From positions 1,488,001-1,552,000 of the forward strand of contig NZ_CP141062.1 of NCBI RefSeq assembly GCF_034661295.1: a stretch of 64,000 nucleotides of DNA, given 5' to 3'. Below, one piece after another: positions 38,766-55,252 of this stretch (positions are counted from its first letter, which is position 1; each line of letters opens with the position of its first letter). The translations under genes were made by a program, and so were the position numbers. The DNA comes from Faecalibacter sp. LW9. GTDB taxonomy: Bacteria; Bacteroidota; Bacteroidia; Flavobacteriales; Weeksellaceae. The notes beneath the pieces are model-generated. The model was not told where the DNA came from and did no database searches. It saw only the letters and a list, made by a program, of their open reading frames with translations.

Positions 38766-39343
38766 TGATAATCTGTATTATTTATTCAAAAGTGAGTAAA
38801 AGGTCTGCTTCTAGAGTAGTCCTTTTATTTTTTTATTGTTATTGCATTAATATTGTAGCGAGGTAGTGATTTGGTGAATGTGATGATTAGTTAATTTGAG
38901 AATGTGATAATCATGCTATTCGTATAATTTAATATTTGGTCATTCTGAGTTGGTCTCAGGATTCCATACGATCTATTATAGGGAAAAAAACTGAAACACG
39001 TCCAGCTTGACAGGATTAGGCTTATATCTTAAACCTTATGTCTTATGCCTTATTTAAGTTGTGGGTTCTGGGTTATTTTGTAAAAAGTAAAAAGTAAAAA
39101 GTAAAATGAAAAATGATTAGTGAATAACTAAAAGTGAAAAGTTTTCTTTTGTTCTAAATTCTAAGTTTACCACTCCACACCATTCATCATTTCTAATTTA
39201 TAATTAGACGAGAAGTAAGACAAAAACCAGTAAAAACAAGATAAAAGTAGAACGTCTTACGTAAAACGTATCTGGTGTATAAAAAATATTTCACCGAGGT
39301 TCAGTGAGTTAGGGATAAAAGAGAAAATAATTCCCAAAAGCAT
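38766..39343. other. Gene-free stretch between the YihY gene and the rRNA promoters
   Basis: No coding frame is supported. A probable terminator lies at 38798-38833. A decayed pair of REP-like arms follows at about 38939-39009 (CATTCTGAG ... CTCAGGATTC, then CTGAAACACGTCCAGCTTGAC). Low-complexity words come next: a CTTAT/TCTTA array at about 39020-39058 and GTAAAAA units in tandem at about 39082-39105. It reads as accumulated non-coding repeat debris upstream of the rRNA operon. Confidence 0.6.
38798..38833 (+). terminator. Probable intrinsic terminator after the YihY gene
   Basis: An imperfect inverted repeat AAAAGG(t)CT ... AG(t)CCTTTT is followed by T-rich sequence. Confidence 0.6.
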
Positions 39344-41424: not shown

Positions 41425-41501
41425 CGAAATAGAAGTTAGAAATTAGAAGTGAGAAGTTAGAAAACTTATTACTTACAACTTATAACTTATAACTTTAAAG
41501 A

Positions 41502-41575
<74 letters not shown>

Positions 41576-41775: not shown

Positions 41776-44555
<2,780 letters not shown>

Positions 44556-44713
44556 AATATTAATTTAACCGTCATAGAGAAGGTTAGTTAATCTTATTTG
44601 AATTGTATACTGGATTGTATATAATAAATTAAAAACAATAAAACTTGTATTCAATTATCTAATAATGTCAAAAATATATTAGGAACAAAACCTAATTAAA
44701 AATAACTAAGAAA

Positions 44714-44823
<110 letters not shown>

Positions 44824-44912: not shown

Positions 44913-45023
<111 letters not shown>

Positions 45024-47066: not shown

Positions 47067-48042
47067 CTATGACAAAACCAAGTTATTTTTATAAATCGTT
47101 TGATTTTTAATTAGCGCATAAATACGATGGATAATTTTATTTCTAACAGCATTCAAAACTGACATTTTATTTTTTCCTTCTTCAACTTTTCGATGAAAAT
47201 ATATAGCCAAATCATTTTCTAATCGAATAGCACTCATTGCTGCTAAATGCAATAATTTTTTCAACTCCTTATCTGCCATTGAAGAAACCTTAGGTCTTCT
47301 TCTTATGGATGTTCCGGATTGAAAATCAAAAGGAGCTATTCCAGCATAGCAAGCCATTTGCCTGGGTGTAGTTATGGTTGTAAAGCCATCTGTTTTTATC
47401 AACATATTAAATGCTATAACTTTTCCCACACCAGGAATTGATTGTATTCTTTTAAATGGTTATTAAGCTGTTCATCCTCGCTAATTAACTGAAAGATTTT
47501 GTTTTCTATTTCATTAATTTGTTTCGTTAAGACATCAATAAGTTTAGTGTTTAAGCGTAAAACAGCTTTATCCATAATGGATTTTAAGAATTGCTCATCT
47601 TGTGTTTGAGCTAATAATCCAGCTTTTATTTTAATGCGATGTTTCCTTTCGGCATTCAATAATTTTATCTTTTCAATGACTTTCGAATTAGGCTTCCACT
47701 CTTGAAGATCCATATAATTCTTTAGTAAAAATAAAGCAATACGTTCACTGTCAATTTTATCATTTTTACCTCTAACTAATCCCATACTTTTTTCAAATGC
47801 AAAGGATTGATCACATAAACAGCAAAAGAATGTTGAATTAATACGTTGTAAAGAAGGGCATTAAATCTCCCTGTGTTCTCCATACCAATTAGAACATTTT
47901 GTTTCTTAACAAATTGTTTGAAAAAAGATTTGATAGCTTTTTCAGTATTAGCAATAGTAACAAAACCATTCACTCCATTTTCTTGAATGCAGATGTCTAA
48001 AGTTAATTTACTCACATCAATACCAATAACAATTTTTTCCAT
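47067..48042 (-). pseudogene. IS110-family recombinase gene with two frameshifts
   Basis: Three consecutive frames form one IS110-family protein of about 325 residues. The first (from 48042) has IVIGIDVSKLTLDICIQ and GMENTGRF, the start of the DEDD RuvC-like domain. The second has RGKNDKIDSERIALFLLKN. The third has the IS116/IS110/IS902 C-terminal domain (RQMACYAGIAPFDFQSG, MADKELKKLLHLAAMSA). The joins are near 47780 (KKVWD against KKSMGLVRG) and near 47455 (LKEYNQFL against LKRIQSIPGVGKV). Each is explained by loss of one A from an A-run. Either the gene is inactive or these are homopolymer sequencing errors. Confidence 0.8.
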
Positions 48043-51627: not shown

Positions 51628-52716
51628 TTATGCGTTAGCGCTTTTATATTTTTTTACTTCTTCGATGAATTCATCAAATAAATACTCTGTATCCACTGGA
51701 CCTCCCATGGCTTCTGGGTGGAATTGAACAGTAAAGATTGGTTTAGACTCGTGACGAATCCCTTCACAAGTTCCATCATTTAAGTTGGTAAAGAATGTTT
51801 TGAATCCTTCTGGTAATTTTGAATCATCCACTGCGAAACCGTGGTTTTGAGAAGTGATGAAACATTTTTTCGTACCAACTAATTGTACCGGTTGGTTGTG
51901 CGAACGGTGTCCGTATTTTAATTTAAATGTCGATGCACCAGCTGCTAAACTTACCAATTGGTTTCCTAAACAAATCCCAAAGATTGGTTTATCACCTTTT
52001 AAAGATTCTTTGATATTGTTGATTGTAGGCACACATAAAGCAGGATCTCCAGGTCCATTCGAAATGAATAATCCATCGTACTCTAACGTTGAGTAATCGT
52101 AATCCCAAGGCACACGAATTACTTCAACACCGCGAGTTGTAAAACAACGGATGATGTTATTTTTAACTCCACAGTCGATTAAAACAATTTTTACATCAGC
52201 ACCTTCGTTGTAGCGAATTACTTCTTTACAAGAAACTTGATCTACTAAATTATCTAAATCTGGATTGTAAAATTCTACGTCTGTATCTGCAACGATTTTA
52301 CCTAAAGTAGAACCTTGCTCACGTAATTTCTTCGTGATCATACGTGTATCTACACCGTAAATTCCAGGGATATTTTGGCTTTCTAACCAAGCACCTAATT
52401 TTTGAATCGCATTCCAGTGAGAGTAATCATCAGCGTAATAAGAAATTACTAATCCAGTTACTTGGATTTTGTTTGATTCCATCCAAGCTTCGATTGATTC
52501 AATCATCGCTTTATCGTCTGGAACACCATAGTTTCCGATCATTGGAGCTGTCATTACCATAATCTGACCTTTATAAGAAGGGTCAGTCAAACTTTCATTG
52601 TATCCAACTAATGCTGTGTTGAATACTACTTCTCCTGCGGCAGAAGTGTAAGCACCGAAAGATTTACCTTCGATCTCTAATCCGTCTTGGAATACTAATT
52701 TTACTGTCTTATCCAT
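51628..52716 (-). CDS. carA: Carbamoyl-phosphate synthase small subunit (glutaminase)
   Basis: The 362-residue protein has the CarA N-terminal domain (LVFQDGLEIEGKSFGA). The class I glutamine amidotransferase domain holds the catalytic Cys in GICLGNQLVSLA and the His in QFHPEAMGGP. It releases ammonia from glutamine for CarB. Its start overlaps the end of argD by 8 bases, which suggests translational coupling within argC-argD-carA-carB. Confidence 0.96.
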   Translation of the reverse strand: MDKTVKLVFQDGLEIEGKSFGAYTSAAGEVVFNTALVGYNESLTDPSYKGQIMVMTAPMIGNYGVPDDKAMIESIEAWMESNKIQVTGLVISYYADDYSHWNAIQKLGAWLESQNIPGIYGVDTRMITKKLREQGSTLGKIVADTDVEFYNPDLDNLVDQVSCKEVIRYNEGADVKIVLIDCGVKNNIIRCFTTRGVEVIRVPWDYDYSTLEYDGLFISNGPGDPALCVPTINNIKESLKGDKPIFGICLGNQLVSLAAGASTFKLKYGHRSHNQPVQLVGTKKCFITSQNHGFAVDDSKLPEGFKTFFTNLNDGTCEGIRHESKPIFTVQFHPEAMGGPVDTEYLFDEFIEEVKKYKSANA

Positions 52717-53845
52717 TGATGATAATGTTAATTTCAGTTTCTAATGCTGATATGAATTTATCTACGTATTGTTTTGTAATAGTAAGTGGTGGTAGTAATC
52801 TGATTACATTTGTTCCAGCGTATCCCACAAAAATGTTATGTTTCGCTAGTAAGTTTTTCTTTAATTCCGCAATTGGGAAGTCGAACTCGATTCCGATCAT
52901 TGATCCACGACCACGAACTTCTTGAATTTTAGGGAATTTATTTAATTGAATACCGATGTATTCACCGATTTCTTTTGCGTTTTCGATTAAGTTTTCTTGC
53001 TCAATTACATCTAAAACTGCAACAGCTGCCGCACATGCTAAGTGGTTTCCTCCGAAAGTTGTTCCTAATAAACCGTAAGACGCTTTAAATTCTGGAGAGA
53101 TTAATACACCACCGATAGGGAATCCATTCCCCATACCTTTCGCCATTGTGATTAAATCTGCTTTGATGTTTGAATGTTGGTGCGCAAAGAATTTCCCTGA
53201 ACGTCCGTATCCTGATTGTACTTCGTCTGCGATTAAAATCACTCCGTTTTCTGTACAAATAGTTCTTAATTCTTGAACAAATTCATCTGAAGGTAAAATG
53301 ATTCCTCCAACCCCTTGGATTGGTTCGTAAATGACTGCAGCAACATCTCCACCAGCGATGATTTCTTTAATTGCATCGATGTTGTAATCAACGAAAGAAA
53401 CTTTGTGGTGTGCGTTGAAAGGCGCAACAATTTTTGGGTTGTCTGTTAAAGCAACTGTTCCTGATGTACGTCCGTGGAAAGCTCCGTTGAACGCAATGAT
53501 ACGATCTTTTCCTGTGTGGAAAGATGCTAATTTCGCTGCATTCTCGTTAGCTTCTGCTCCAGAGTTACATAAGAATAATGTATAGTCATCATATCCTGAT
53601 AATTTCCCTAATTTCTCTGCTAATTCTGTTTGAATTGGAATTTGAACAGAGTTAGAGTAAAATCCGATATTGTTGACTTGTTCTGTAATTTTTTGCACAT
53701 AATGTGGGTGTGCATGCCCGATCGAGATCACTGCGTGACCACCGTATAAGTCTAAATATTCTTTTCCGTTTTCATCCCAAAGAATACAATCTTTAGCTTT
53801 AACCGGAGTTACGTTCATTAATGGATATACGTCGAATAGTTTCAT
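52709..53845 (-). CDS. argD: Acetylornithine aminotransferase (class III, PLP)
   Basis: The 378-residue enzyme starts MKLFDVYPLMNVTPVKAKDCILWDENGKEYLDLYGGHAV. It shows the class III motifs LFLCNSGAEANENAAKLA, VILIADEVQSGYGRSG and the PLP lysine in TMAKGMGNGFPIGG. It transaminates N-acylornithine. Whether the acyl group is acetyl or succinyl cannot be read from the sequence. It lies between the four-helix-bundle cassette and carA. Confidence 0.93.
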   Translation of the reverse strand: MKLFDVYPLMNVTPVKAKDCILWDENGKEYLDLYGGHAVISIGHAHPHYVQKITEQVNNIGFYSNSVQIPIQTELAEKLGKLSGYDDYTLFLCNSGAEANENAAKLASFHTGKDRIIAFNGAFHGRTSGTVALTDNPKIVAPFNAHHKVSFVDYNIDAIKEIIAGGDVAAVIYEPIQGVGGIILPSDEFVQELRTICTENGVILIADEVQSGYGRSGKFFAHQHSNIKADLITMAKGMGNGFPIGGVLISPEFKASYGLLGTTFGGNHLACAAAVAVLDVIEQENLIENAKEIGEYIGIQLNKFPKIQEVRGRGSMIGIEFDFPIAELKKNLLAKHNIFVGYAGTNVIRLLPPLTITKQYVDKFISALETEINIIING

Positions 53846-53859
53846 TTTGTTCTTGTTTT

Positions 53860-53885
53860 ACGCTTAACGGTTTACGCTAAACGAT
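53860..53885. repeat. Left flanking repeat of the four-helix-bundle cassette
   Basis: The sequence ACGCTTAACGGTTTACGCTAAACGA overlaps the 3' end of the cassette gene and is an imperfect inverted copy of the right flank at 54234-54264. It is built from the word TAAACG. Confidence 0.6.
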
Positions 53886-54234
53886 TGTTAATTGTTTTTA
53901 TAAAAGCTAAAATCATTGCTTTTACTTTTTCAACTTGATCTTCAAGTTCCGCAAATGTAACTTCAGTTATCAATTTTAAATCTTTAGATAAGATTAATAG
54001 ATATAACGTTTCATTTGTAGAACCTAAAGCGATGTGAAGGAATCGTAAAAAATCTTTATCAGAATTTCTTCCACTACCTTCCGCTATATTATTCGATATC
54101 GATGTACAAGCTCTTCTTAATTGAGAAGTTAGATTAAACATTTCAGATTTAGGAAAATCAGAAGTTATCTCATAAATTTTCAATGTCAATTGATGAGCTT
54201 CACTCCAAACCTTTATTTTTCTGAAATCTTGCAT
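53872..54234 (-). CDS. Four-helix-bundle protein (S23/IVP family)
   Basis: The 120-residue protein matches the four-helix-bundle family best known from intervening sequences in 23S rRNA genes: FRKIKVWSEAHQLTLKIYEIT, FNLTSQLRRACTSISNNIAEGSGR, FLRFLHIALGSTNETLYLL. The function is unknown; relatives serve as accessory proteins in diversity-generating retroelements. Here it sits inside the arginine operon, 31 bases after argC and 26 before argD. It is nearly abutted by inverted repeats, so the unit looks like a small inserted cassette. It is in the same direction as the operon, so the operon may still be read through. Confidence 0.9.
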   Translation of the reverse strand: MQDFRKIKVWSEAHQLTLKIYEITSDFPKSEMFNLTSQLRRACTSISNNIAEGSGRNSDKDFLRFLHIALGSTNETLYLLILSKDLKLITEVTFAELEDQVEKVKAMILAFIKTINNRLA

Positions 54235-54264
54235 ATCGTTTACCGTTTAGCTTAAAGCGTTAAC
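54234..54264. repeat. Right flanking repeat of the four-helix-bundle cassette
   Basis: ATCGTTTACCGTTTAGC followed by TTAAAGCGTTAACC touches the start codon of the cassette gene. Its reverse complement resembles the left flank, sharing the order CGCTT(T)AA, then GCTAAACG, then AAACGAT. Confidence 0.6.
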
Positions 54265-54265
54265 C

Positions 54266-55252
54266 TTAAAAAGCTACCGTCTTTAAATTAAGTCCTAAAT
54301 TCTCGTCCCATCCGAAGATGATGTTCATATTTTGTACCGCTTGACCTGAAGCACCTTTTGTTAAGTTGTCGATGATCGAAGTGATTAATAAAACATCGTC
54401 TTGTTTTTGGATGTGTAATAAACATTTGTTGGTATTTACCACTTGTTTTAAAGCTATTGGCGCATCCGATACAAATGTGTAAGGCTCATCTTTGTAGTAT
54501 TCTTTGTACAATTGGATCGCCTCTTCTTCTGATAAATCAGATTTTAAATAAACACCGGCTAGAATACCACGAGCAAAATCTCCACGCATTGGTAAGAAAT
54601 ACACTTTGTGATCAAAACCTGGTTGTAATAAATTCAAAGTTTGATAAATTTCTCCTTCGTGTTGGTGCGTAAATTCTTTGTAGAAAGATACATTATTGTT
54701 TCTCCAGCTGAAATGAGTAGAAGCGGATAGCGATTGTCCAGCACCAGTCGAGCCTGTAACAGCGTTGATATGGATGTCTGCATGAATTTTTTTACTGGCA
54801 GCTAATGGTAATAACGCTAATTGAATGGCTGTTGCAAAACATCCTGGGTTCGCAATGTTTTTCGCATCTAAGATGGCAGAACGATTGTATTCTGGTAATC
54901 CGTAAACGAAATCTCTTTCTTCAAATTTTTGATTAGCATCTAATCGGAAATCGTTACTTAAGTCGATGACAACGGTATGCTCAGCATATTTATGATTAGC
55001 TAAAAACTCAGCTGATTTTCCGTGACCTAAACATAAGAAAACAACATCAGCATTTTCATCAATTTTATCCGAAAATACGATATCGGTTTCACCGTATAAA
55101 TCGTCGTGAACCTGAGATACAGGATTTCCTGCATTGGATGTGCTGTATACAGAAGAGATATTGACATTCGGATGATGAATCAAAATGCGAAGTAATTCTC
55201 CGGCAGTGTAACCAGCTCCACCTACGATACTAACATTAATTTTGTGTGTCAT
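54266..55252 (-). CDS. argC: N-acetyl-gamma-glutamyl-phosphate reductase
   Basis: The 328-residue protein has the NADP-binding start VSIVGGAGYTAGELLRILIHHP and the catalytic Cys in NPGCFATAIQLALLPL (about residue 137). VTGSTGAGQSLSASTHFSWR is the substrate region. It reduces N-acyl-glutamyl phosphate made by ArgB. The gene lies 81 bases after argG, separated by a stem-loop, and reads into the four-helix-bundle gene and argD. Confidence 0.95.
   Translation of the reverse strand: MTHKINVSIVGGAGYTAGELLRILIHHPNVNISSVYSTSNAGNPVSQVHDDLYGETDIVFSDKIDENADVVFLCLGHGKSAEFLANHKYAEHTVVIDLSNDFRLDANQKFEERDFVYGLPEYNRSAILDAKNIANPGCFATAIQLALLPLAASKKIHADIHINAVTGSTGAGQSLSASTHFSWRNNNVSFYKEFTHQHEGEIYQTLNLLQPGFDHKVYFLPMRGDFARGILAGVYLKSDLSEEEAIQLYKEYYKDEPYTFVSDAPIALKQVVNTNKCLLHIQKQDDVLLITSIIDNLTKGASGQAVQNMNIIFGWDENLGLNLKTVAF

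Follow-up and report, generated by a model that had tools for sequence, protein, structure and literature searches.

The window analysed in this work is a stretch of 64,000 nucleotides from Faecalibacter sp. LW9 in which two arginine biosynthesis genes recognised from their ORFs and context, argC (54266..55252, minus strand) and argD (52709..53845, minus strand), are separated by a spacer of 420 bp (53846-54265). This spacer is filled by a four-helix-bundle gene of the S23/IVP family (53872..54234, 120 codons) that lies on the same strand, downstream of argC, which is found in all 14 genomes of the genus, and upstream of argD. The gene is bounded by two arms composed of 7-bp words, and together with them it forms a unit of ~410 bp. 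The left arm, 5' of the gene (54237..54265, minus strand), is composed of GTTAACG CTTTAAG CTAAACG GTAAACG, adjoins the argC stop codon and lies 2 bp off the start codon of the four-helix gene. The right arm, 3' of the gene (53855..53883, minus strand), is composed of CGTTTAG CGTAAAC CGTTAAG CGTAAAAC, is inverted with respect to the left arm and overlaps the stop codon of the gene. The original prediction, that a four-helix gene flanked by inverted repeats is located between argC and argD, is therefore real. It had described the repeats as a word TAAACG touching the start and stop codons, but the word is a heptamer of the form STWWACG and not only a 6-mer. Both operon genes are intact, in agreement with the proposal that the host operon is kept readable.

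Each arm in the window has four words of this form, some of them with a mismatch. The pattern STWWACGSTWWACG (two tandem words with at most one mismatch) has eight matches in the 64 kb, against 0.56 expected and a maximum of 3 in shuffles, and six of these eight matches are the two arms. The inverted similarity of this arm pair is weak by itself (z=2.0), so that the case depends on the word periodicity and on the analysis of many copies.

It had also been noted that this protein family occurs in 23S intervening sequences but that the 23S gene here has none visible. In fact, the Rfam LSU model is matched over its full length by the 23S rRNA gene found here (41778-44556), and no extra insert is visible. 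The same rRNA operon ends with two 5S rRNA genes in tandem (44715-44822 and 44914-45021), and a short ORF further on (47776-48042, minus strand) resembles the start of what we take to be an IS110-type transposase, probably truncated.

The window protein matches PF05635 (E=2.9e-39, 134 bits against a cut-off of 33.8) and TIGR02436 (E=1.3e-38, 131.6 bits against a cut-off of 24), and its AlphaFold model consists of four helices with a pLDDT of 96.8. The closest solved structures are 2gsc (Z 20.9, rmsd 1.1) and 2rld, followed by Avd; 2gsc and 2rld contain five chains each, and by homology to them the window protein is probably a pentamer. No nuclease or other catalytic function is recognisable in the ORF. 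An anti-phage defence system was rejected, as none of the PADLOC models matched any of four copies tested at E<=0.1, and a phage-borne gene was rejected because the phage collection that was searched contained no match. To the best of our knowledge, decades of annotation have given S23/four-helix-bundle genes no function.

Heptad flanks of the four-helix genes

The genome contains seven PF05635-like genes, the six others being 30-49% identical to the one in the window. They are located at the argC-argD, groES-groEL, fadB-fadA, hisC-hisB, rfbB-rfbA and purH-purD junctions and in a polysaccharide locus, according to our reading of the neighbouring genes. A search for more copies with the same flanks had been proposed as a check; all seven are flanked by 7-bp words, but each copy has a word of its own. 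When 85 copies from Bacteroidota relatives were pooled, both 60-bp flanks presented an excess of matches at lags 7, 14, 21 and 28 that was absent from the coding region and from sequence 400 bp away. The same periodicity was found in the flanks of copies from named genomes of other phyla, from Gammaproteobacteria ranging from 35 to 67% GC and from plasmids (14 copies, 13 of them cyanobacterial). Among 217 distinct copies from several phyla, at least one flank was significantly periodic at 7 bp in 71%, and both flanks were so in 48%; the corresponding figures at lag 9, which was used as control, were 8% and 1%. Heptads were not evident by eye at some loci of DPANN archaea, and these loci were excluded from some of the counts. 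Two observations count against the reading of the unit as a cassette: ~29% of the 217 copies have significant heptads in neither flank, and a simple score does not separate all the copies of this genome from other genes. Of the four copies present in an 800-kb stretch, not every one has flanks with an extreme value of this score, so that the association between gene and heptads depends on the pooled copies and not on each one of them.

The genes themselves are under purifying selection, with dN/dS values of 0.05-0.15 in 22 close pairs, and they are mostly co-directional with both neighbours (105 copies, against 11 with an opposed neighbour). Some copies occupy other kinds of sites. In three cyanobacterial plasmids (L281, L291 and L293) the cassette lies within CRISPR operons, at cas6/cas4 and cas10/cmr3-like gene junctions, and other copies directly adjoin tRNA genes (L306, L309, L311 and L313; L137, L153 and L189). 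One locus (L072, genome G009) holds two different four-helix cassettes ~1.2 kb apart, with different words.

The best run in each arm covers ~32 bp, equivalent to 4-5 words, and the arms of a copy have one consensus word in common, mostly in inverted orientation. For well-defined arm pairs, the mean similarity of the left arm to the reverse complement of the right one was 0.46, whereas that to the right arm itself was 0.07. Inverted arms prevailed over direct arms 65 to 10, which makes inversion common and not universal, and the roughly ten copies with direct arms count against the cassette reading. The strand that reads inward is rich in G and poor in C in both arms (8.5 and 11% C). When the whole words of one arm were shuffled, its match with the other did not decrease (z=0.14+-0.13, 35 copies), so that the arms share a consensus and not an order of variants. 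This unmatched order argues against both a maintained stem and a hairpin copied from end to end, and it also means that the arms are not classical terminal repeats. Terminal inverted repeats of the IS/MITE type, common to the copies, were not found, the words varying from copy to copy. Word similarity rises with protein identity in copies with different flanks, from ~0.04 below 35% identity to 0.28 at 60-80%, in pairs that are not independent of each other. Stop triplets are ~1.4-fold more frequent than in shuffles in all four arm/strand classes, which indicates no strand-specific purpose, and the possibility that the words serve as stop codons in all frames was rejected on this basis.

Boundaries of the unit and history of its sites

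Related copies at unrelated sites have in common the left arm, the ORF and the right arm, and nothing outside them. The identity between two copies of one genome (L274 and L275) is 80% and extends from 41-45 bp upstream of the start codon to 19-55 bp downstream of the stop codon. Among three copies from cyanobacterial plasmids (L287, L289 and L290) it is 79-83%, from 38-41 bp upstream of the gene to 12 bp downstream of it, where the alignment ends. On either side the limit lies at the outer edge of the arm, and the surroundings of these related copies are unrelated.

The argC-argD site was compared in 14 Empedobacter genomes, among which three (G000, G002 and G010) carry the type found in the window. 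A second type, 56% identical and with GTTATAC-like words, is present in 2 of the 14 genomes, and a third one, ~50% identical and with GTTATGA-like words, in 4 of them, being frameshifted in G006. G008 retains both arms and lacks the gene, and in G004, G005 and G007 the spacer has 17-30 bp, with a remnant in G005 that looks like the right end of a second-type unit. Empty sites had been proposed as a check on relatives, and both gene-less and arms-only sites thus exist in the same genus. In G011 (L049) the four-helix gene is replaced by a lipoprotein-like gene with WG repeats (PF14903), and the heptad arms there are of two different types. The argC of this genome is nearest to those of G012 and G005 (95%) and its four-helix gene to those of G002 and G010 (88%), which indicates an exchange or sorting of the alleles found here. 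All eight intact argC-argD copies fall on one side of a branch with a support of 83, which is not strong; if this branch holds, both arms of a single site would have switched jointly to another word.

Other sites have different histories. At fadB-fadA a copy is present in 13 of the 14 genomes, with a 3-bp gap in G007; at purH-purD it is present in five and absent from nine; and at groES-groEL only this genome of the 14 has a copy, the others having arrays or nothing. The protein tree decides neither for nor against a single clade of the fadB-fadA or of the groES-groEL copies. No target-site duplication could be defined because empty and filled sites are too diverged. Over 13 labelled sites, the protein tree has 13 changes of site label against a minimum of 12 by our count, which indicates that copies mostly remain in place on time scales from genus to order. 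A change of site can be recognised between the hisC-hisB and hisA-hisF lineages. Movement thus appears to be rare or slow, each site having essentially one protein lineage, and as site and lineage almost coincide the units may be long-settled. Taken together, the seven copies, the gene-less and arms-only sites and the arm-ORF-arm identity point to a minimal unit bounded by repeats, with the operon gene on either side undamaged. The minimal mobile unit of the original prediction is largely borne out in that arm, ORF and arm alone are common to unrelated sites, but its movement is slow.

Nature of the unit

Our preferred reading, which we consider probable, is that of a minimal mobile cassette of ~410 bp formed by a left heptad arm, the four-helix-bundle ORF and a right heptad arm. 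It is favoured by the heptads in both flanks across phyla, by the inverted arms with one word per copy, by the alignments that end at the outer edge of the arms, by the gene-less, arms-only and exchanged sites, and by the higher frequency of heptad arrays in genomes with the family. The arms are the ends of the unit, each with ~4-5 iterations of a consensus word specific to the copy and with the C-poor strand reading inward on both sides. The product of the ORF, a putative pentamer, could recognise the iterated words and bring both ends together; this is suggested by its being the sole gene in the unit, by the words travelling with protein lineages and by the rough agreement between five subunits and 4-5 words. 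The strand chemistry would be supplied from elsewhere in the cell, as no recognisable nuclease is encoded. A sense position between a stop codon and the next start codon would provide free transcription while sparing the host operon, and gene-less heptad arrays found elsewhere could be dependent or decayed ends.

The heptads could otherwise act in RNA, the arms pairing within the operon transcript so that the gene is looped out on a stem, perhaps with cleavage by RNase III as in 23S rRNA, and with little disturbance of the host mRNA. The protein family is the same as in 23S intervening sequences, and that of Coxiella burnetii is a close parallel: it has 428 nt, terminal inverted repeats and an S23p ORF, considered to be in decay, whose start codon is directly preceded by 7-bp repeats (PMC4990558). 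The two are thus alike in protein family, in their similar size, in their inverted ends and in the repeats before the ORF. However, the window unit lies in the spacer of an mRNA operon (argC-argD) and not in rRNA, its ends are degenerate runs of words and not a near-perfect 28-bp stem, and its ORF is maintained by selection. Folding gave results on both sides. The arms of a copy pair better with each other than with swapped arms (duplex energies of -28.0 versus -16.5 kcal/mol, and 13.7 versus 6.1 arm-arm pairs in folds), and the window element folds at z=-5.6 with its arms paired, but with 55-nt arms the window copy forms only 3 arm-arm pairs and the window ORF alone already reaches z=-3.6. 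The sense strand is not preferred, as there is no excess of G.U-compatible mismatches (351 versus 503) and the antisense strand folds equally well. Tests for a conserved RNA stem were negative for word order and for sense-strand preference, and the direct arms of some copies are also against it. An RNA stem closing the unit without strand preference is possible, but we consider the RNA element as a whole rather unlikely.

The arrays might also be ordinary intergenic repeats born by slippage, or regulatory sites for a host factor, the gene being a normal operon gene among them. Gene-less arrays are indeed common here: 800 kb of this genome contain 59 heptad arrays, of which many are close to rRNA operons and few adjoin a four-helix gene. 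Both the strong purifying selection and the long residence at one site would be expected of such a gene. Heptamer arrays are also known in the literature, such as GGGAATC and GGGGA(C/T)T in Xanthomonas and Nostoc, with inverted pairs in Xanthomonas (PMC4692102), TAACTGA in Beggiatoaceae (PMC4679880) and the repeats of trnL P6b, described without a four-helix gene (PMC4476775). They resemble the arms in being intergenic runs of degenerate 7-bp words in the same phyla, but here the runs are the ends of a gene-bearing unit and each copy has a separate word; a text search of PMC4692102 and PMC4679880 found no mention of a linked four-helix/S23 gene. Against this explanation, arms are mostly missing or reduced to remnants at gene-less sites, they accompany the ORF to new sites, and the host genes at these sites have no common theme. 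Furthermore, arrays are scarce in the sampled genomes that lack the family: 10 arrays in 318 kb with it versus 1 in 300 kb without it in Gammaproteobacteria, and 9 versus 2 in 200 kb each in Bacteroidota (pooled p=0.0006, in a small sample unmatched for genome size and lifestyle). We assign ordinary repeats a low probability. Lastly, the unit could be a retroelement moved in trans, its protein assisting, as Avd does, a reverse transcriptase encoded elsewhere, with variable words arising from error-prone copying. The four-helix fold matches Avd, both alone (4dwl) and within the reverse-transcriptase complex of a diversity-generating retroelement (8ub7), with Z ~15 and rmsd 1.6-1.7, and one other copy in the genome exceeds the bAvd cut-off (55.7 versus 40 bits). 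The window protein, however, has ~9% identity to Avd and falls far under the cut-offs (NF033474, 22.2 versus 80 bits; bAvd, 21.2 versus 40 bits). This route is weakened by the lack of any RVT_1 match in this genome, such a reverse transcriptase being present in only 4 of the 14 genus genomes, and differences between neighbouring words have no dominant single-base pattern. We judge it very unlikely.

Returning to the mobile cassette, it recalls MITEs and IS elements in being a short unit with inverted ends, gene-less derivatives and empty sites, but it has no transposase, its ends are not identical within the family and its target duplication is undefined. More broadly, we tentatively propose that PF05635 proteins might make and spread scattered heptamer repeats, and that they might be central to a distinct class of mobile elements that lack a transposase. 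Its ends would be iterated 7-nt words read by a pentamer (five subunits for about five words per arm), with a lineage-specific word kept in concert at both ends; 23S intervening sequences would be the members dwelling in rRNA, and gene-less arrays dependent copies. To our knowledge, the accounts of heptamer repeats in cyanobacteria, Xanthomonas, Beggiatoaceae and Bacteroidetes are scattered and name no source for them, and a literature search, largely outside subscription journals, found no paper joining them with four-helix or 23S intervening-sequence genes. The association across phyla, with arms as the ends of a moving unit, would give a common explanation for this gene family and for the 7-base repeats of bacterial genomes, both of them so far unexplained.

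Gene-less arrays are also present in the window, in the 16S-23S spacer between two tRNA genes (41461-41546) and before the 16S gene (39019-39210), and near-identical arrays recur by other rRNA operons of the genome. Outside the window, many heptad arrays with the words GTTAGAA, TAAGCGT and CCTAATC are clustered at 902-906 kb of the genome (L191:1900-6000), where they occupy repeated blocks of intergenic DNA that adjoin polysaccharide genes and lie near another four-helix copy.
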